This document shows positions 3,728 through 57,134 of a stretch of 64,000 bases of DNA, piece after piece. Where the stretch lies: NCBI GenBank assembly GCA_011090425.1, contig PHGD01000004.1, positions 1-64,000 on the forward strand. Reading direction: 5' to 3'. How positions within the stretch are numbered: position 1 is the first letter of the stretch; each line of letters opens with the position of its first letter. The notes beneath the pieces are model-generated. The model did not search any database. It saw only the letters and a program-made list of their open reading frames with translations, and was not told the DNA's origin. Made by a program: the position numbers and the translations under genes. Origin of the DNA: Nitrospira sp. LK70. GTDB taxonomy: Bacteria; Nitrospirota; Nitrospiria; Nitrospirales; Nitrospiraceae.

Positions 3728-4408
3728 GTGATCGGTGAAGGGATGTGTGGTGGGCCCAACGAAGAGTTCGAGCGGGCAGCCCGGCTGTGTGGGTATCGTC
3801 GTGTTGCCGGTATCGATGAAGCAGGACGTGGCCCATTAGCCGGGCCGGTCGTCGCCGCCGCTGTCGTCCTACCGACCCGATGTCGACTCTCAGGGGTCGA
3901 TGATTCTAAGCAACTTTCTGAAGGGCGGCGAGACCGATTGTATGCGGCGATTCTTGAGCAAGCCGTGGGGATGGGAATCGGATCGGCGGACGCCTGGGAG
4001 ATCGATCGACTCAATATTCTCGAAGCGACCAGGCTAGCGATGCAGCGAGCCATCGATCAGCTGGCTCCTCCTCCTGATTATCTACTCATTGATGCCGTGA
4101 CTCTTCCTGGAATCAGAATCTCTGTACGGCCGATTATCAAGGGAGACTCCCTCTCCCTCTCGATCGCGGCGGCCTCCATCATCGCCAAGGTCACGAGGGA
4201 TCGTCTCATGGCGAAGTACCATGACATGTTCCCCGAATATGATTTTCTCTCCCATAAGGGGTATGGCACGACCGGACATCTGCAGCGATTGGCGCGCCAT
4301 GGCCCGTGCTCCATTCATCGTCGAACGTTCATGCCGGTGCAAGAGATGATCATCGCTGCGAAGAGGAAGCCGCACGGACGGATGCGCTCCACATGGTTCG
4401 AGCAGTAA
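3728..4408 (+). CDS. rnhB: Ribonuclease HII
   Basis: This endonuclease cuts the RNA strand of RNA-DNA hybrids and initiates removal of single ribonucleotides from DNA. The signature GIDEAGRGPLAGPVV near residue 28 carries the first catalytic Asp-Glu pair. VDDSKQLSEGRR and a later LLIDAV strand supply further acidic residues, and SIIAKVTRDRLM and HKGYGT follow as in the family. GTG 3728 gives 226 residues. ATG 3743 is an alternative, but its AAGGG is only a base away, too close for normal spacing. It sits between rplS and yraN, a frequent order. Confidence 0.94.
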   Translation: MIGEGMCGGPNEEFERAARLCGYRRVAGIDEAGRGPLAGPVVAAAVVLPTRCRLSGVDDSKQLSEGRRDRLYAAILEQAVGMGIGSADAWEIDRLNILEATRLAMQRAIDQLAPPPDYLLIDAVTLPGIRISVRPIIKGDSLSLSIAAASIIAKVTRDRLMAKYHDMFPEYDFLSHKGYGTTGHLQRLARHGPCSIHRRTFMPVQEMIIAAKRKPHGRMRSTWFEQ

Positions 4409-4411
4409 GCG

Positions 4412-4801
4412 ATGGCCGCTTCCGACCCGCGCCATCAGTTCGGCCAAGCCAGTGAAACGCAGGCCGAACAGTTCTTGCTGGCCAAGGGCTACCGAATTCT
4501 CGACCGCAACGTCCGGACCCCTCTCGGCGAATTGGACCTCGTGGCGGAAGACCAAGGTGTTGTGGTTTTCGTCGAGGTCAAGGGTAGGACCACGGAAGCC
4601 TTCGGCGGTGCGTTGCTCGCGGTGGATCATCGCAAGCGGGCAAAGCTGACGAAACTGGCTGCCCTCTATTTAGCGCAACGGCATTGGTCCGATAAGGTTT
4701 GCCGATTCGATCTGGTGTTGGTCCAGGGGAGACCTTCCGGCCAGGGACAGATCGAACATCTCCAGAACGCGTTCGACGTCGGAGAACGCGGAAGGTTCTA
4801 G
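4412..4801 (+). CDS. yraN: YraN family (UPF0102) endonuclease-like protein
   Basis: This small restriction-endonuclease-fold protein of 129 residues is linked in other bacteria to DNA metabolism; its exact role is not settled. The PD-(D/E)xK-type core is visible as GELDLVAEDQGVVVFVEVKGR (about residues 32-52), with the acidic Asp of LDLV and the ExK of VEVKGR. It follows rnhB by three bases and ends 20 bases before ftsE, so it closes the rplS-rnhB-yraN group. Confidence 0.9.
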   Translation: MAASDPRHQFGQASETQAEQFLLAKGYRILDRNVRTPLGELDLVAEDQGVVVFVEVKGRTTEAFGGALLAVDHRKRAKLTKLAALYLAQRHWSDKVCRFDLVLVQGRPSGQGQIEHLQNAFDVGERGRF

Positions 4802-4821
4802 CCCTTCTCCAAAGGGTTTCC

Positions 4822-5511
4822 ATGGATGCCATCATTCAACTCATCCACGTGTCCAAGTGGCATGATCGAAAAGCCGCGCTGTCCGATGTCACGCTCGAGA
4901 TTGAAAAGGGGGAGTTTGTCCTTCTCATGGGATCGAGCGGGGCGGGGAAGTCTACGCTGTTGCGCATGCTGTTCGGTGAGGAGCAGCCGGACGAAGGACA
5001 GATTTTTGTTCACGGCAGGAATGTGACGAGACTCAGACCAACCGAGATTCCTTATCTTCGACGGAAGGTCGGTGCGGTCTCTCAAGACTTTCGTCTCTTG
5101 CCGAAGAAATCCGTCTTCGACAATGTGGCGCTTCCGTTGCTCGTTCAAGGTATGCCCGAAAAAGATATCCGTCGTAAAGTCACGGAGGCATTGCGCGCGG
5201 TCGATGTCGATCACAACAAAGATCAGTTGCCGAACAGTCTCTCCACGGGAGAACAGCAGCGTGTGTGCATCGCACGGGCGATCGTCAACGGGCCGGTGGT
5301 GCTCCTGGCCGACGAACCAACGGGCAATCTTGATCCGGAACACACAAGAGAGATCATGGAGTTGTTCAAATTGATCAATGCCCGAGGGACGACTGTGATC
5401 GTCGCGACGCACGATCCTCATGTCCTGCATCACGTGAATCGTCGGGTGATTACCTTGGTGCAGGGGGTATTGCTGTCGGAGCGGCGGATCGGGCAGGGAG
5501 TCGGCCTATGA
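4822..5511 (+). CDS. ftsE: Cell division ATP-binding protein FtsE
   Basis: This is the ABC ATPase that drives FtsX and links the cytoplasmic divisome to periplasmic amidase activation. The 229 residues include Walker A GSSGAGKST at about 37-45, a Q-loop (AVSQDFRLLP), the signature LSTGEQQRV, Walker B VVLLADEPTG and the switch His (VATHDPHVL). The frame is open back to 4699 but overlaps yraN. ATG 4822 is chosen because the ABC domain begins there. The stop overlaps the ftsX start by four bases (ATGA), which indicates translational coupling. Confidence 0.95.
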   Translation: MDAIIQLIHVSKWHDRKAALSDVTLEIEKGEFVLLMGSSGAGKSTLLRMLFGEEQPDEGQIFVHGRNVTRLRPTEIPYLRRKVGAVSQDFRLLPKKSVFDNVALPLLVQGMPEKDIRRKVTEALRAVDVDHNKDQLPNSLSTGEQQRVCIARAIVNGPVVLLADEPTGNLDPEHTREIMELFKLINARGTTVIVATHDPHVLHHVNRRVITLVQGVLLSERRIGQGVGL

Positions 5512-6407
5512 GACGACTCTATTATCTCGTTCGCGAAGCCTGGGCGAACATGCGGACGAATCGGACGACTACGATCGTCGCCGTTCTGACCACGGCGTTT
5601 ACCTTGGCCTGTGTGGGTATCTTTCTGTTGCTCTATATGAATTTGCGGCAGGCCGCAGGATCGCTCCAGGAAGATGTCAAGCTCATGGTCTATTTGGAGG
5701 ATCGACTTCGGGGCGAAAGAGTGCAGGAACTGGAGCGAAAGCTCAAGGCTGATCGCATGGTTGCCCAGGTATTCTTCATTTCGAAAGAACAGGCCTTGGG
5801 AGAATTTCGAGCCCAATTCCCCGGTGAGTCCCACTTACTCGAAGGGCTCGGCGAGAATCCGCTCCCGGCTTCGTTTGTGGTGACGCTTGCGCCGAGCTTT
5901 CGGTCTCCTGACGCCATGAGAGGCTGGGTTGAACGAGTGCAAACAATGGCAGGTGTCGCCAAGGTCGACTATAATCAAGAATGGCTCAGTCTGTTGGCCG
6001 AGCTGATCAGATATATCGAGATGGCTGCGATCGGCGTCGGGATCCTCCTCTCCGCAGCCGCAGTGACGATCATCGGGAATACGATCAGGCTTGCTCTGTT
6101 GGCTAGACGAGAGGAGATCGAAATTCTTCGTTCGATCGGGGCTACGCGCACGTTCATCCGTATCCCATATTTCCTCGAAGGAGCCGTGCTCGGAGCCTGC
6201 GGCAGCGCACTCTCGCTAGGAATTCTTAAGGTCGCGTTTGAACTGTTCCGGCAGCAGATCCAATTGACAGGCCGTTTCAGCGGGATCGAAGCCATGCTCT
6301 CGTTCTTTCCCCTCTCGGTATGTCTGGCGCTCGTCCTGGCGGGGATGGGGCTTGGTTTTGCCGGTAGCGTGGTGTCGCTCCTTCGTGTTGGGGAGGGGCG
6401 GACATGA
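5508..6407 (+). CDS. ftsX: Cell division permease-like protein FtsX
   Basis: This membrane partner of FtsE has no known transport function and passes ATP-driven movement to an EnvC-type activator outside. The 299 residues show one N-terminal membrane helix (TTIVAVLTTAFTLACVGIF), then an extracellular domain of about 130 residues, then three C-terminal helices separated by LALLARREEIEILRSIGAT, the usual FtsX coupling loop. It overlaps ftsE by four bases upstream and the EnvC-like gene by four bases downstream, so all three are likely co-translated. Confidence 0.94.
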   Translation: MRRLYYLVREAWANMRTNRTTTIVAVLTTAFTLACVGIFLLLYMNLRQAAGSLQEDVKLMVYLEDRLRGERVQELERKLKADRMVAQVFFISKEQALGEFRAQFPGESHLLEGLGENPLPASFVVTLAPSFRSPDAMRGWVERVQTMAGVAKVDYNQEWLSLLAELIRYIEMAAIGVGILLSAAAVTIIGNTIRLALLARREEIEILRSIGATRTFIRIPYFLEGAVLGACGSALSLGILKVAFELFRQQIQLTGRFSGIEAMLSFFPLSVCLALVLAGMGLGFAGSVVSLLRVGEGRT

Positions 6408-7588
6408 GCATCTCCTTCACCATCCTGCTGGGGTGTCTTGCGGTGGGGGGAGGGTGGACATCCGCCGCCGGTGCGGCGAATGATCCGATCTCTGAAAAAA
6501 TAGAGCGAGAGCGGAAGACGCTTGATCAGCTGAAGGGCAAGATCGAAGAGAAGCGGAAACGAGCGGAGGAAGCAGAAAAGAAACGAGAATCGGTTCTGCA
6601 GGGCATCCAATCCCTCGATGAACGACTGGTGAGTCATCGGCAGGATCATCATGAGATCAGCAAGCAACTGAGACGGAAGGATCGGGAACTCGAAGAGATT
6701 ACAGACCGGCTTGGGGTGATGCGAACCAGCATTGATGCACGACGTGAGGCCATTCTTGCCCACCTCCGTGTGCAGTATATGGAAGGACGGTTTGGTCGTG
6801 TGAGGATGCTCTTCACGGCGGACTCGTACGGTAATCTTCAGCGCCGCGGACAATACCTCTCTGCCGTTTCACACAAGGAGTACGAATTGCTGAAGACATT
6901 CCGAGCCGATATGGAGCGGATGGAGCAGGCGGAGCACCAGCGTACCGAGGCCAGGGCCGGACTGATCGCCTTCAAGCTGAACATCGAGAAGAAACTGGTC
7001 GACATCCGAGCGCTTCAGAATGAGAAAAAGGTCTATCTGGCGAAGATCACGCACGAAAAGGATTCCTACAATCGCACAGTCGAAGAACTGCAGCGTTCCG
7101 CCTCGCGAGTGGATGGCCTGTTGCAGGAGTTGGAAACGCGCCGACGTGCCATGGCCTTGCATCCTCCGACGACTTCACCCTTGGCGCACGGAGTGAGAGG
7201 CACTCTACCTTGGCCGGCCGAAGGCAAAGTCGTATCGTTTTTCGGGCGTCAGAAACACCCGACGTTCAACACCTATGTCCAGCGCAAAGGCATCGAAATC
7301 CGAACCGAAGAGGGAAGCTTCATCCATGCTGTCATGACTGGAAACGTCGTCTATGCGGACTGGTTGAAAGGATACGGACTCGTTATAATCTTAGATCACG
7401 CCAACGGGTTTTTCTCACTGTATGCACACGCGTCCAAGATTCTGGCCAAAGCGGGTGAACAAGTTGCCGAAGGTCAGCCTATCGGGGAGACCGGGGATAC
7501 GGGCATGATTGGAGAAAATACTTTATACTTCGAGTTACGTGAAGGGGCCGAGCCGGTCGATCCGCTCCACTGGCTGGCAAAACGATAA
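6404..7588 (+). CDS. EnvC-like murein hydrolase activator (degenerate M23/LytM domain)
   Basis: This secreted partner of FtsEX most likely switches on cell-wall amidases at division. The 394 residues have an N-terminal signal sequence ending near AAGA, a long coiled coil (about 25-240, rich in Glu, Lys, Arg) and a C-terminal LytM domain. The LytM zinc ligands are degraded. The first His position reads KGIEIR, and the final HxH reads LYFEL. Loss of ligands is the EnvC pattern for a regulator instead of an active peptidase. The four-base overlap with ftsX supports the assignment. Confidence 0.9.
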   Translation: MSISFTILLGCLAVGGGWTSAAGAANDPISEKIERERKTLDQLKGKIEEKRKRAEEAEKKRESVLQGIQSLDERLVSHRQDHHEISKQLRRKDRELEEITDRLGVMRTSIDARREAILAHLRVQYMEGRFGRVRMLFTADSYGNLQRRGQYLSAVSHKEYELLKTFRADMERMEQAEHQRTEARAGLIAFKLNIEKKLVDIRALQNEKKVYLAKITHEKDSYNRTVEELQRSASRVDGLLQELETRRRAMALHPPTTSPLAHGVRGTLPWPAEGKVVSFFGRQKHPTFNTYVQRKGIEIRTEEGSFIHAVMTGNVVYADWLKGYGLVIILDHANGFFSLYAHASKILAKAGEQVAEGQPIGETGDTGMIGENTLYFELREGAEPVDPLHWLAKR

Positions 7589-51728: not shown

Positions 51729-51831
51729 GACGTCCCATCGTTGTTGTGGAGAGTTGTTTCTGGATGCTGCGCTTGACTCCAATGCTCTTCTGCGTTCATA
51801 TTCTGAACGTTGGGTACGGCCATCTAACCAT

Positions 51832-52419
51832 ATGAATCTCCAGGAGCAACGAGATCTTCTCTTGCTGAGCGAACTGGAACGCGATGGTGCGGTCACCCAG
51901 CGGTCTCTTGCAACAAAGCTAGGGGTTGCTCTAGGTTTGACCAATCTCTATCTTAAGCGGTTGGCGCGGGACGGCTATATTAAAATAACCACGATTCCCT
52001 TACAGCGGGTTCGGTATGTTCTGACTCCACAAGGGCTTGCTGAGAAATCCAGGCTGGCCTATCTCTCTATGGAGTATTCCCTGTCTCACTACCGCGATCT
52101 GCGGACGCGGCTACGAGAAGCGCTGTCTGATACGGTCCAAAACGGAACGAAACGGGTCGTCATTTATGGAATCGGTGACCTGGCGGAGATGGCGTATCTC
52201 TCGCTCCGAGAAATGCATATGACCTTGGTTGGATTCGTAGATGATAGCCGACAGGAGGCGTTTTTATCCTATCCGGTCTGGCCGCCGGAGGTGTTGAGTG
52301 AATGGGAATTCGATGTAGTGTTCCTGGCGGGTTTCGACCAGGCAGCGGGGCACCGTGAAACATTGCATCAACGCCTCGTTCCTGATAGCAAGATCATAGC
52401 GCTGGCTCCATCATTCTGA
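51832..52419 (+). CDS. MarR-type winged-helix regulator with Rossmann-like C-terminus
   Basis: This is a likely regulator of the downstream polysaccharide genes. The 195 residues start at ATG 51832; the frame is open to TTG 51754 and no clear ribosome site decides between them. A winged helix (LLLLSELERDGAVTQRSLAT, LGLTNLYLKRLARDGYIKI, RYVLTPQGLAEK) matches EPS-associated MarR-like proteins. A C-terminal part (RVVIYGIGDLAEMAYLSLRE, LVGFVDDSRQEAFLS) resembles a nucleotide-sugar or CoA-binding Rossmann fold. The fused domain could sense a glycan precursor; that is inference. Confidence 0.8.
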   Translation: MNLQEQRDLLLLSELERDGAVTQRSLATKLGVALGLTNLYLKRLARDGYIKITTIPLQRVRYVLTPQGLAEKSRLAYLSMEYSLSHYRDLRTRLREALSDTVQNGTKRVVIYGIGDLAEMAYLSLREMHMTLVGFVDDSRQEAFLSYPVWPPEVLSEWEFDVVFLAGFDQAAGHRETLHQRLVPDSKIIALAPSF

Positions 52420-52551: not shown

Positions 52552-52914
52552 ATGGCCATAATCCGGTTTGAGGATCTTGAGGTATGGCAGGAAGCCACTT
52601 CGTTGGCGGTTGAGATCTATGTCGTCTCGAAAGATGGCAGCTTTTCCCAGGATTTCGGTTTCAGGGATCAACTGCGGCGATCGGCTGTTTCGATTGCTTC
52701 AAATATCGCCGAAGGCAAGGAGCGAGAGACGATTCCTGAGTTGATTCGCCATTTCTATATCGCAAAAGGATCATCCGGTGAACTCAAGACTCAGCTTTTC
52801 ATTGCCGAGCGAGTGGGTTACATCGGGTCAGACCGTGCCAAAGATCTCAGACAAACCGCAGAGAAGATCAGCGCCAAACTCGGCGCCTTGATTCGAACAC
52901 TCAAAGCGAAGTAG
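52552..52914 (+). CDS. Four-helix-bundle protein (bIVP / S23 family)
   Basis: The 120 residues start at ATG 52552; upstream open frame is Arg-rich and reads repeat-like DNA. FEDLEVWQEATSLAVEIYVV, DQLRRSAVSIASNIAEGKER and FYIAKGSSGELKTQL are the standard family motifs. The family was first seen in 23S rRNA intervening sequences, and its members scatter widely through genomes. The function is unclear. It lies between the MarR-like and NusG-like genes with GCGAC-rich palindromic words on either side. Confidence 0.88.
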   Translation: MAIIRFEDLEVWQEATSLAVEIYVVSKDGSFSQDFGFRDQLRRSAVSIASNIAEGKERETIPELIRHFYIAKGSSGELKTQLFIAERVGYIGSDRAKDLRQTAEKISAKLGALIRTLKAK

Positions 52915-52924
52915 CGAGATTCCT

Positions 52925-53464
52925 ATGAGCGCTCGATTCTCCACTTTGGCGTGTCCCGCATCCCTCGCGTTTCCCGCACCTCGCTGGTACGCAGTCCGTA
53001 CCAAATCACGTCATGAAAAACTAGTACGAGATCAATTGGATAAGCAAGGAATCGAGCCGTTGCTGCCGACGGTCAAACGGCTGAGTCAGTGGAAAGACAG
53101 GAAAAAGGAAATCGAGGTCCCGCTGTTCTCCGGCTATTGTTTCGTGCGGTTTGCTCAGCTGGAAAAGACACCGGTGCAAAAGATCGTAGGAGTCGTCGAA
53201 ATCGTCGGCAGCGGAAATCGACCTGAACCGATCCCCGAGCAAGAAATCGATGCGCTACGCCGCCTCATGATGAGCGTTCTTCCGTATGATCCCCATCCCT
53301 ACCTTCATGAAGGGATGAAAGTGGAAGTCGTTCGCGGACCCTTGCAAGGAACGCACGGCATTCTGCTGCGAAAAGAGAAGCGGCATCGCTTAGTAATCGG
53401 AGTGCGACTTATTCAGCAAGCGGCGGCGGTTGAAATCGACGTGAATGATGTGATGGCAGTGTGA
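52925..53464 (+). CDS. NusG-like specialised antiterminator (UpxY/RfaH type)
   Basis: This NusG paralogue probably lets polymerase read through the long polysaccharide operon. The 179 residues contain RWYAVRTKSRHEKLVRDQLD (NGN domain), VPLFSGYCFVRF, and a KOW segment HEGMKVEVVRGPLQGTHGIL. The first 20 residues (Ala/Pro-rich) are encoded by repeat-like CTCGCG sequence and may not be native. The 3' end of this gene is duplicated as a remnant at 54385-54483. Its position at the head of the cluster fits the usual UpxY arrangement. Confidence 0.9.
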   Translation: MSARFSTLACPASLAFPAPRWYAVRTKSRHEKLVRDQLDKQGIEPLLPTVKRLSQWKDRKKEIEVPLFSGYCFVRFAQLEKTPVQKIVGVVEIVGSGNRPEPIPEQEIDALRRLMMSVLPYDPHPYLHEGMKVEVVRGPLQGTHGILLRKEKRHRLVIGVRLIQQAAAVEIDVNDVMAV

Positions 53465-53474
53465 TCTTCATCCC

Positions 53475-53966
53475 ATGCTGAAGGAAGCATTCGCCGAATT
53501 AGCCGACCGGACGGTTTCTGCCGTTCGAGCATTCTACGGCGATCGACTCGTCTCGGTCGTGCTCTATGGATCGGTGGCGCGGGGCACGATGCGGCATGAT
53601 TCCGACATGGATCTGTTGATCGTGGCCGACCCTCTTCCCAACGGCCGATTGAATCGGGTTCGTGAATTCGAGGCTGTTGAAGAAGCCTTGGAGGAGGGTT
53701 TCAGCCGAGCGGCGAGCCGTGGAGTTCACACCGTTCTGTCGCCCGTCTTCAAAACCGCCCATGAAGTCCAGGCAGGGAGCCCGCTCTTTCTGGATTTGGT
53801 TGAAGATGCCCGCGTGCTCTACGATCGAAACGAATTTTTTTCGCAAGAACTCGCTCGTCTGCGGAAGAAGCTCAGCCGACTCGGCGCCAAACGTATTTGG
53901 AGGGGCAATGCCTGGTATTGGGATCTCAAACCGGACTATCGGCCCGGCGAGGTGTTCGAGTTATGA
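53475..53966 (+). CDS. MNT-type nucleotidyltransferase (antitoxin-like)
   Basis: The 163 residues have the minimal nucleotidyltransferase motif GS-x10-DxD: GSVARG at 32-37, then DSDMD with catalytic Asp44 and Asp46. The helical C-terminus is typical of stand-alone MNT proteins. Its partner is the HEPN gene, which starts inside its stop codon (ATGA overlap). Known MNT antitoxins AMPylate or otherwise inactivate their HEPN toxins; that role here is inferred. Confidence 0.87.
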   Translation: MLKEAFAELADRTVSAVRAFYGDRLVSVVLYGSVARGTMRHDSDMDLLIVADPLPNGRLNRVREFEAVEEALEEGFSRAASRGVHTVLSPVFKTAHEVQAGSPLFLDLVEDARVLYDRNEFFSQELARLRKKLSRLGAKRIWRGNAWYWDLKPDYRPGEVFEL

Positions 53967-54373
53967 CGAACGAATCGCTGGCCCAAAGTTACTTGAAAAA
54001 GGCATCAGACCGACTGGACGTGCTTGAATTGCTCATTGGGAAAGAAGCCTACTCCGATGTGGTGCGCGAGGCACAGGAATTGGTCGAGTTGGCGTTGAAG
54101 GGAATGATCAGGTCCATCGGCATCGAGCCGCCGAAAATCCATGATGTCGGAAACTTGCTGCTGGAGTATCGCGAACGATTCCCCGAGGAAGTACGAGCGC
54201 AATTGGCGGATCTCGCGATTATCTCAAAGCGGCTGCGTAAGGAACGGGAGCTGGCTTTCTACGGGGATCTCGATTTCATACCGACTGAGGAATATTCCTA
54301 TGAGGATGCTCACCAAGCTACGTTGGAAGCCCAGCGGGTTCTTCAAGCGGCCCAACGTGTGATTCGCGGATAG
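53963..54373 (+). CDS. HEPN-domain protein, partner of the MNT protein
   Basis: The 136 residues start at ATG 53963, overlapping the MNT stop. AQSYLKKASDRLDVLELL, VREAQELVELALKGMIRSIG and HDVGNLLLEYRERFPEEV are typical of HEPN partners of MNT. The RNase signature Rx4-6H of toxic HEPN proteins is not evident; the nearest Arg-to-His spacing (RSIGIEPPKIH) is nine. So it may be a non-nuclease or degenerate HEPN. Confidence 0.85.
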   Translation: MTNESLAQSYLKKASDRLDVLELLIGKEAYSDVVREAQELVELALKGMIRSIGIEPPKIHDVGNLLLEYRERFPEEVRAQLADLAIISKRLRKERELAFYGDLDFIPTEEYSYEDAHQATLEAQRVLQAAQRVIRG

Positions 54374-54384
54374 AAGAACTGTGG

Positions 54385-54483
54385 GGTATTTTTCTCCAGA
54401 GAGAGAAGCGACATCGCGGAGTTCGACTTTTCCAGCAAGCCGTCGCGGTGGAGATCGACGTGAATGATGTGGTGGCGGTGTGA
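54385..54483 (+). pseudogene. Remnant of the 3' end of a nusG-like gene
   Basis: The frame reads GIFLQREKRHRGVRLFQQ and then AVAVEIDVNDVVAV before a stop. It matches the C-terminus of the NusG-like protein ending at 53464 in 26 of 32 aligned residues, with three residues missing (nine bases deleted). No start or NGN domain is present. The copy begins just after the HEPN gene, so the MNT/HEPN pair lies between the intact gene and this remnant. Confidence 0.85.
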
Positions 54484-55068
54484 TGAATTAATTCGACATG
54501 CCGACAGTATTGTTTGATGGTCGGGGTTTCATGTCTGATGGTGGTCTATGGACGATTTGAGTCATTGTAAGCCAGGGAGCGAGCAGTTTGCTTGCCTGAT
54601 GAAAAGAGAGGACCTACGGATGTCCGGAAAACCAGTGCGTCATATTCGGCCCGCTTCACTCACCTCACCGTCTGTATCGACCAGCGTAATCCGACACCCG
54701 GCTACTGTCACCCGTGCATCGCGGGGCGCAAAACGCCATGGCAGCGCGATCGTGGAGAACGGCGATTTTCTGGATGTCTGTTGTGATGCGCAGATCGAAG
54801 TCTGCGAAGCGCGCGACGTCAAGGGGATGTACAAGAAAGCGCGCAGGCCAGATTGCAGAATTCGCGTTGATCTCGTCGCTCTACGAAATTCCAGAGCAAC
54901 CCGACCTCATCGTGGAAGCCGGTTGATTGAAACTCGATGAGTGTGTGCGAAGCGTCATCGGTGAGCTGGAGAGGCGGGGTTGATCAAGAGACCTTGATCG
55001 AGAGCGTATGATGATGAGGAGACGGATACTGTGGCAGGAGACCAGTTCGGGAATAGAGAACACCGAGG
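54484..55068. other. Decayed region between nusG remnant and ABC exporter
   Basis: The 585 bases carry no intact gene. A cysC pseudogene fills 54740-54983. Left of it, 54484-54739 may hold the decayed N-terminal half; a stretch near 54655 loosely resembles the ISPYR segment of APS kinase, but this is weak. The promoter of the wzm-like gene should lie in the last 85 bases. Confidence 0.6.
54740..54983 (+). pseudogene. Adenylylsulfate kinase (CysC) pseudogene, C-terminal part
   Basis: APS kinase makes PAPS, the sulfate donor. The first frame reads AIVENGDFLDV and then IEVCEARDVKGMYKKAR. The other frame continues AGQIAEFALISSLYEIPEQP, DLIVEAG, stop, LKLDECVRSVIGELERRG. These match the C-terminal half of CysC (VCEARD.KG.YKKARAG.I..FTGI.SPYE). 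A two-base loss in a GC repeat near 54841 breaks the frame, and a TGA interrupts after VEAG. The P-loop half is not recognisable. Confidence 0.82.
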
Positions 55069-55896
55069 ATGGATAGTCAAAGCGAGCTGGTGATTGAGGC
55101 GGGCAAGACCGAACGCCACTATTGGAAAGATCTGTGGCGATACCGTGAGCTGTTTTATTTTCTGGCCTGGCGCGACATCCTGGTGCGGTACAAACAAACC
55201 GCCATCGGAATCGCGTGGGCCCTGATCCGTCCGCTGTTGACCACGATCGTTTTTGTGTTCGTCTTCGGCAAGTTGGCCAAGCTGCCTTCCGACGGCGTAC
55301 CCTATGCAGTTTTGGTGTTTGCCGCCCTGCTCCCATGGCAGTTTTTTGCCAATGCCTTTGCTGAGGCGGGCAACAGTCTGATCAGCAATGCCAACATGAT
55401 TTCCAAGGTGTATTTCCCCCGGTTGGTCGTGCCGGCCAGTGCGGTGATCGTGGGCCTCGTGGATTTTCTGATATCGGGACTGATGTTGGCTGGGTTGATG
55501 CTCTGGTACGGCATGGCGCCTGATTGGCGGATCGTCACCTTGCCGCTGTTTCTGGCCGTTGCCGTCCTGGCCGCCATGGGGGCCGGCTTGTGGATTGCCG
55601 CGCTGAATGTCCAGTACCGGGATTTCCGCTATATCATCCCCTTCGGAGTGCAATTCGGACTCTATGTCTCGCCGGTTGGATTCAGCAGCGCCATCGTTCC
55701 TGAACAGTGGCGGTTGCTGTATTCCATCAATCCGATGGTGGGGGTGATCGATGGATTTCGCTGGGCGATCCTGGGGGGAGAGAACGGCTTGTACTGGCCC
55801 GGCATGTCGCTCTCCCTGGCGCTTGTGTTGGTGGGTACGATTACCGGCGTCCTGTATTTTCGGAAGATGGAAAAAAGCTTTGCGGACGTGATCTGA
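55069..55896 (+). CDS. Polysaccharide ABC exporter permease (Wzm-like)
   Basis: This inner-membrane channel for undecaprenyl-linked polysaccharide has 275 residues with about six helices. YRELFYFLAWRDILVRYKQT precedes the first helix, as in ABC-2 type permeases of the TagG/Wzm group. LLPWQFFANAFAEAGNSLIS and the C-terminal helices follow. It is followed without gap by the Wzt-like ATPase; the TGA and ATG share a base. Together they define the ABC-dependent O-antigen route. Confidence 0.92.
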   Translation: MDSQSELVIEAGKTERHYWKDLWRYRELFYFLAWRDILVRYKQTAIGIAWALIRPLLTTIVFVFVFGKLAKLPSDGVPYAVLVFAALLPWQFFANAFAEAGNSLISNANMISKVYFPRLVVPASAVIVGLVDFLISGLMLAGLMLWYGMAPDWRIVTLPLFLAVAVLAAMGAGLWIAALNVQYRDFRYIIPFGVQFGLYVSPVGFSSAIVPEQWRLLYSINPMVGVIDGFRWAILGGENGLYWPGMSLSLALVLVGTITGVLYFRKMEKSFADVI

Positions 55897-57134
55897 TGGC
55901 CGTCGCCATTACCGTTGAGAATCTGTCGAAGAAATACATCATTGGCCATCAACCGCGCGAGCGCTACATGGCGTTGCGGGATGTGCTGGCGAACGAGGCA
56001 AAGCGGTTCGCGCAGAAGCTGATTCACCCCTTCGCCCGACCGGAAGGTGATACGACGCATGAAACCTTCTGGGCCCTCAAGGACGTCAATTTCACTATCC
56101 AGCAAGGGGACCGGGTCGGGATCATCGGCCGCAACGGGGCAGGCAAATCGACCTTGCTCAAAATTCTGAGCCGCATTACCGAGCCGACGTCAGGCCGCAT
56201 CAAGATTCGCGGCCGAGTGTCCAGCCTGCTGGAAGTCGGTACGGGTTTTCACGCGGAACTGACTGGGCGAGAGAACATCTTCTTAAACGGCGCCATTCTC
56301 GGCATGGGCAAAGCCGAGATCGCGCGCAAGTTCGACGAAATCGTCGCCTTCGCAGAAGTCGAGAAATTTCTTGATACTCCGGTTAAGCGTTATTCCAGCG
56401 GCATGTATGTCCGGCTTGCCTTCGCCGTGGCTGCGCACCTGGAGCCGGAGATCCTCATCGTGGACGAAGTGCTGGCGGTGGGCGATGCGCAGTTCCAAAA
56501 GAAATGCCTGGGCAAGATGGAGGACGTGGGCAAAGAGGGACGAACTGTGCTGTTCGTGAGCCACAACATGGGAGCCGTTCAGCAGCTGACAATCACGGGA
56601 ATGCTTCTTGTGAACGGCGGTCTGGAACAACTCGGGCCAACTCAGGAAGTAATTGCTAATTATCTGGACGCTGGGCAAGCGAGCAACGAGGCCATCAACC
56701 CCAGAAGCGAGGCGGAGACTTTTCAAGTCCGACGCGTGTGCTTCAATCAGGAGCGACTCGAGCCGGGTTTTAACCGGCCATTACGGTTCGATCTTGAATT
56801 GAATCTCGCGCAGGTCATGAAAGCTGTCAATGTCAGTTTGGGTATCTTCAATTCGATAGGTGCCCGTCTCCTAACAGCCCGATGCATTGTGGATGAATTG
56901 CCAGCAGGTGTCACGAAAGCGGCCATTACTGTGGCGGACCACCATCTTCCGCCGGGTAACTATTCATTGCTGCTCGCGGTCTCAGTTAGTCAGCAAATGC
57001 TCTTTCGGCAGGAAAATCTTCTCAAGTTTGAATTGTCTGATATCGGTGTGGATGAACCTCTTTTGGTCCCGTTTTTGGCTCATCATCGTGACCAGATTGG
57101 GGCATTTCTAACCTCTAAATGGAGTCTGAGCTAG
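55896..57134 (+). CDS. Polysaccharide ABC exporter ATPase with C-terminal substrate domain (Wzt-like)
   Basis: The 412 residues comprise an ABC domain (about 1-250) with Walker A GRNGAGKST, signature YSSGMYVRLAFAVA and Walker B ILIVDEVLAVGD. A C-terminal beta-sandwich (about 275-412) is of the type that binds the non-reducing end of the polymer in Wzt. Start ATG 55896; the longer open frame lies inside the permease gene. The stop overlaps the GTG of a truncated sulfotransferase. Confidence 0.92.
   Translation: MAVAITVENLSKKYIIGHQPRERYMALRDVLANEAKRFAQKLIHPFARPEGDTTHETFWALKDVNFTIQQGDRVGIIGRNGAGKSTLLKILSRITEPTSGRIKIRGRVSSLLEVGTGFHAELTGRENIFLNGAILGMGKAEIARKFDEIVAFAEVEKFLDTPVKRYSSGMYVRLAFAVAAHLEPEILIVDEVLAVGDAQFQKKCLGKMEDVGKEGRTVLFVSHNMGAVQQLTITGMLLVNGGLEQLGPTQEVIANYLDAGQASNEAINPRSEAETFQVRRVCFNQERLEPGFNRPLRFDLELNLAQVMKAVNVSLGIFNSIGARLLTARCIVDELPAGVTKAAITVADHHLPPGNYSLLLAVSVSQQMLFRQENLLKFELSDIGVDEPLLVPFLAHHRDQIGAFLTSKWSLS

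Follow-up and report, generated by a model that had tools for sequence, protein, structure and literature searches.

Gene content of the locus

The window, the whole 64,000-nucleotide stretch of Nitrospira sp. LK70 analysed here (host genome size 4.7 Mb), carries a polysaccharide locus with the gene order GT9, GT9, MarR-type regulator, IVP four-helix-bundle protein, nusG-like gene, MNT, HEPN, nusG tail, ψcysC, wzm and wzt (Table 1). Across about 60 loci of the genus the series GT9–GT9–MarR–nusG is stable, and everything downstream of it is highly variable. The MarR-type regulator upstream of nusG is conserved genus-wide; its top NCBIfam match, TIGR04176 (MarR_EPS, 3.8e-14), lies under the family cut-off. 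The slot of the IVP gene (52552–52914), between MarR and nusG, is another point of gene turnover. Relatives have this slot empty or filled with clearly different subfamilies (29–97% identity).

The nusG-like gene scores 120.7 bits with NF033644 (curated cut-off 100), which places it in the UpxY family, and it is a predicted UpxY-type antiterminator heading the polysaccharide cluster. In passing the UpxY cut-off and in its place at the head of such a cluster it resembles the UpxY/RfaH/LoaP NusG paralogues. A literature search on UpxY and Nitrospira found no link of UpxY/RfaH/LoaP-type genes to end-duplication scars. Between 52400 and 55069 no integrase or transposase gene was identified among the ORFs or by domain search; the insert holds just MNT and HEPN.

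Table 1. Features of the polysaccharide locus in the window.
Feature	Position	Strand	Evidence
MarR-type regulator	51754..52419	+	PF13412 2e-10; belongs to the conserved left side of the locus
Four-helix-bundle protein (23S rRNA IVP family)	52552..52914	+	PF05635 2.2e-33
NusG-like specialised antiterminator (predicted, UpxY family), intact upstream copy	52925..53464	+	NF033644 antiterm_UpxY; PF02357
nusG position where relatives G054/G055 change from resident to foreign sequence	53278..53332	+	MaxChi breakpoints nt 296–350 (from codon 20), split trees
MNT nucleotidyltransferase	53475..53966	+	PF01909 2.3e-9; GSX10DXD intact
HEPN protein, Class II, without RX4-6H	53963..54373	+	PF05168 2.2e-18; conserved H60, R92/R95 by alignment
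Second nusG 3' end (scar), 9-nt deletion, stop codon included	54376..54483	+	DNA repeat, tblastn, DNA profile
Decayed cysC (APS kinase), ~270-nt internal deletion and frameshifts	54620..54996	+	alignment to G063 (cysC intact there)
wzm-type ABC transporter permease	55069..55896	+	PF01061 1.9e-18; right flank common to the uninterrupted locus of G063
wzt-type ABC transporter ATPase	55893..57134	+	PF00005 1.3e-23

The nusG 3' end recurs behind the HEPN gene

The original prediction, that the 3' end of the nusG-like gene recurs past the HEPN gene with the MNT/HEPN pair exactly between the two ends, is borne out: the end of the gene at 52925–53464 is found again at about 54376–54483, beginning almost directly at the HEPN stop codon, and the pair occupies 53475–54373. 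The six substitutions and the nine-base deletion that had been described are both present, the six being amino-acid changes over 35 codons and not nucleotide changes. At the protein level GILLRKEKRHRLVIGVRLIQQAAAVEIDVNDVMAV becomes GIFLQREKRHR---GVRLFQQAVAVEIDVNDVVAV in the tail (six amino-acid changes and a three-codon deletion), and at the nucleotide level the two ends differ at 24 of 110 aligned positions, the gap being extra. Without gaps the two ends can be aligned over a core of 68 nt with 85% identity (53398–53465 vs 54417–54484), and the repeat continues upstream past the 9-nt deletion. The tail is found with E = 4.7e-17 by the DNA profile (locus set) and E = 9e-7 by tblastn (whole genome); a chance origin of the repeat is excluded. 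By tblastn it is the sole nusG C-terminal fragment in a genome that otherwise holds an intact paralogue (48%) and the housekeeping nusG.

A tail kept for its function, as a regulatory element or as a small KOW-domain peptide with an effect on the operon that follows, would fit a frame that is open to the stop codon save for the in-frame three-codon deletion. However, the tail has no start codon and no full domain, it combines the 9-nt deletion with a saturated first 25 nt, it is absent from all loci without MNT-HEPN and a decayed gene comes next, all of which makes a retained function hardly credible.

An uninterrupted junction corresponds to the right flank

Comparison with genomes that have an uninterrupted junction, proposed as a check together with the original prediction, found such a junction in G063, which reads nusG–cysC–wzm–wzt vs tail–ψcysC–wzm–wzt in the window. 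The cysC gene of G063 is intact (217 aa). Window segments 54589–54751 and 54748–55189 align to G063 across cysC into wzm, although the window lacks about 270 nt of cysC and has its frames broken; the residual ORF still matches APS kinase (PF01583, 9.7e-8). Since the decayed cysC stands between the tail and wzm, the tail belongs to the cysC–wzm segment and occupies the position of the nusG end in G063. The Wzm protein of the window shares 88% amino-acid identity with that of G074, 87% with G049 and 82% with G063; by left flank G063 is nearer to the window than G074 or G049, and both ψcysC and the cysC–wzm spacer match G063. A possible remnant of an MNT start between nusG and wzm of G074 (TTGAAAGAAGCA..., LKEAVEEL) is suggestive, and was set aside after the MNT profile gave no match.

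Second nusG ends accompany the MNT/HEPN pair across the genus

A nusG DNA profile, run at full sensitivity over about 60 Nitrospira loci, detected a second nusG fragment in four loci alone (the window, G019, G055 and G054), each time at this MNT/HEPN pair or what remains of it. Among loci that have the pair 4 of 7 are scarred, and among those that lack it 0 of 52 (Fisher p = 8e-5; 6e-4 with the sisters G054 and G055 counted once). The fragment lies downstream of HEPN in the window and in G019 and upstream of MNT in G055 and G054, where the intact nusG stands 7 kb further upstream of the fragment with another polysaccharide module between. The end-duplication that was to be looked for at other MNT/HEPN loci is therefore found, independently in G019 and, with the fragment on the opposite side of MNT, in G055/G054. 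The pair occurs with no detectable scar in G049, G046, G044 and G360.

An intact gene followed by cargo and a displaced original end, recurring at the same site, is the geometry known from integrases that insert into gene 3' ends with restoration of the end, and MNT-HEPN could be read as an element of this kind. It would integrate site-specifically, with the 3' end of nusG for its attachment site, and bring a replacement end along, in the manner of integrases at tRNA genes. This is very unlikely: unlike such insertions, the window has no recombinase, the 1-kb insert and its surroundings being free of integrase genes, and no constant core, the duplicated stretch varying between cases. The pair lies 3.7–11 kb from nusG in G049, G046 and G360, G055/G054 have the duplicated part of nusG ahead of MNT, and the pair was unmatched in a phage search and gave just a remote (28%) MNT match in a plasmid search.

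The main rival is that nusG, or a nusG-MNT-HEPN unit as in the other origin offered with the original prediction, was duplicated locally in tandem and that the second copy decayed to its last 100 nt without any DNA exchange. The tails do fall beside the nusG of their own lineage (sister in G019, within the local clade in the window; see below) and decay is common here, as in ψcysC and the broken MNT genes of G046, G043 and J017. Yet the locus holds no second MNT or HEPN remnant, and two full tandem nusG copies, the arrangement that would have spoken for simple decay, occur in none of the 60 loci searched with the DNA profile. Together with the differences between the copies and the mosaic genes described below, this leaves duplication as a weaker and, in our estimate, unlikely alternative.

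nusG genes of relatives are mosaic

The nearest relatives of the window by left flank are G054 and G055 (MarR 93–95%). Over two thirds of their length from the 5' end their nusG genes are about 95% identical to that of the window, and over the remaining third 74%, with switch points at nt 296–350 (MaxChi, permutation p 5e-5 to 3e-4; the breakpoint tests were run after the data had been seen). In split trees their 5' part groups with the window (support 92) and their 3' third leaves the local clade, which retains the window (98*); an AU test on the 3' third is not significant (p 0.19), unlike MaxChi. A first reading of MaxChi had the window nusG as the recombinant, which outgroup comparison and the split trees ruled out. 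Because the split trees keep the window in the local clade throughout, G054 and G055 are the recombinants, their foreign 3' end having arrived with a new module.

The displaced fragment in G055 has the reciprocal pattern, changing from foreign to resident sequence at nt 401–407 (8:1 before the switch and 0:8 after it; p 7e-4, rising to 0.018 if the final two aligned sites stay in), and the left and right switch points of G055 are 50–100 nt apart. In G019 the two nusG ends are identical over 59 nt and then diverge abruptly, with 9 differences in 27 nt (p 3e-5). The G019 tail is sister to the G019 nusG (100/97), so its event is separate from that of the window. Duplication without exchange leaves both the mosaic nusG of G054/G055 and the abrupt divergence in G019 unexplained. 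Genus-wide, relatives that share a downstream module are more alike in the 3' third of nusG, measured against the 5' part, than relatives whose modules differ (p 0.013–0.016 at two relatedness cut-offs), a modest effect that is not significant at the strictest relatedness cut-off (p 0.12).

The two copies in the window

No clean reciprocal breakpoint was found between the two nusG copies of the window. The tail falls inside the local clade (96/89) in a tree of 106 columns, too short to fix its exact sister; an AU test does not reject the window's own nusG as that sister (p-AU 0.33). Third-codon positions account for 8 of the 11 differences within the final 79 nt of the tail (p 0.009), and because of this bias most of the divergence arose while the two copies were still coding. 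Several of the differing sites show the base common in the genus in the tail and a rare one in the intact nusG of the window. Both observations stand against a duplicate that decayed in place.

Probable recombination inside nusG

The second nusG end is probably the junction scar of homologous recombination inside nusG that joined cassettes. The nusG-like antiterminator gene is the last conserved gene before the exchangeable modules of the Nitrospira exopolysaccharide locus, and incoming DNA that carries a nusG relative would recombine with the resident nusG. The crossover would leave one complete nusG, and the displaced 3' end of the other copy would be left beyond the inserted block, where it would decay. 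In the window nusG-MNT-HEPN would so have been joined to [nusG end]–cysC–wzm–wzt, the latter being the uninterrupted arrangement of G063. The repeat, the uninterrupted junction, the recurrence at the pair in separate lineages and the mosaic nusG of relatives are observed; that the process behind the mosaic genes of relatives also made the scar of the window is what we infer from them.

The idea of an insertion at the nusG 3' end with restoration of the end is broadly supported by the G063 junction and by the recurrence, with three points to correct. Homologous recombination inside nusG appears to be the mechanism; the inserted block in G054/G055 is a 7-kb polysaccharide module, so that scars are not made by the MNT/HEPN pair alone; and the window fits either MNT-HEPN placed before a resident nusG–cysC–wzm or cysC–wzm placed behind a resident nusG-MNT-HEPN. 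We lean slightly towards the MNT-HEPN block, and not the cysC–wzm block, as the newcomer. Alternatively, cysC–wzm may have joined behind the resident nusG-MNT-HEPN; either order is a join at nusG.

In capsule and O-antigen loci, polysaccharide biosynthesis modules are exchanged by homologous recombination in conserved flanking genes. The Nitrospira locus is similar in its conserved left side, its highly variable right side and the breakpoints inside a conserved border gene. It differs in having its own NusG-like antiterminator for a border gene and in the persistence of old 3' ends as scars beside MNT/HEPN. Module exchange at a polysaccharide locus is ordinary in kind, but we have found no description of a variant in which the antiterminator gene serves as the seam and leaves scars that can still be read. 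Should crossovers recur in nusG-like antiterminator genes, the remnants of these genes would mark past swaps and help to reconstruct the assembly of surface-polysaccharide loci, and the staying together of regulator and operon through exchange would be explained. A speculative and rather doubtful extension is that specialised NusG genes heading polysaccharide operons are portable recombination adaptors: cassettes would travel with the antiterminator 3' end, each swap would restore an operon-matched regulator and an MNT/HEPN pair riding at the seam would help to retain new modules.

The MNT/HEPN pair and its neighbours

The GSX10DXD motif of MNT (GSVARGTMRHDSDMD) is intact and invariant in four orthologues; the MNT score for NF047752 is 30.9, under the cut-off of 60. 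Adjacent PF01909 and PF05168 genes with MNT first make this a Class II HEPN/MNT pair, and in the order of the overlapping genes, in GSX10DXD and in PF05168 it resembles both HepT/MntA (type VII) and Class II HEPN/MNT (PMC7641770, PMC3710099). Unlike HepT of type VII, the HEPN protein lacks the RX4HXY/RX4-6H motif, the region reading RKERELAFYGD in all four orthologues, and is thus outside Class I HepT. His60 is invariant in the four orthologues and basic residues stand at the place of the motif, as in the AF0298-like type with its alternative conserved His upstream of the motif (PMC3710099). The earlier description of the pair as toxin-antitoxin-like agrees with the gene order and not with a HEPN that lacks the RNase motif. 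Since this is a Class II HEPN without RX4-6H, its 'toxin' label is unproven; Class II pairs are without the RNase motif and their TA status still needs validation (PMC7641770). Among solved structures none matched HEPN and one MNT chain matched weakly.

In the genus and family nearly every orthologue of the pair is at the nusG polysaccharide locus, either adjacent or 3.7–11 kb off, those without the nusG side being G043 (short contig) and J017. Several more distant relatives of the pair stand amid glycosyltransferase or nucleotide-sugar genes (G192, G316, G184, G093, L135, L136). The recurrence of Class II MNT/HEPN near such loci suggests a natural testing place for the role of these unvalidated pairs.

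Related arrangements were seen elsewhere. In another family of the phylum (L176 of G180, 4175–5726) a UpxY-like NusG (45%) lies directly upstream of MNT-HEPN on a contig without obvious polysaccharide genes, and in L185 (G255, 4393–6899) a relative of the pair lies between cas4 and cas1. Nitrospira sp. CR1.3 (G360; L132, 9998–12265) has three TA-like modules stacked behind polysaccharide genes: a Class II MNT-HEPN, a MazE/AbrB-type antitoxin gene and a canonical MntA-HepT whose HepT has RNLLVHLY. In L048 (2270–2990) a different MNT and a PF05168 HEPN gene lie between MarR and nusG, and a different MNT is also present in L049, L050, L053 and L119; because of such loci, small TA-like pairs and IVP genes can be said to accumulate on both sides of nusG.

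In G019 (L047, reverse-complement orientation, 6840–6990) a remnant of a canonical MntA C-terminus lies between HEPN and the nusG tail. A match of 16–18 nt between G055 and G019 near the pair (GAGGTATCTGCGCGAGG) was considered as an attachment core and rejected, the sequence in G019 being part of the C-terminus of this different, canonical MntA; G055 may hold a piece of about 20 nt of the same sequence in front of MNT. In L054 (G058, 5204–5681) another wzm/wzt cluster is preceded by a second, frameshifted nusG copy, and a cysC fragment lies immediately upstream.
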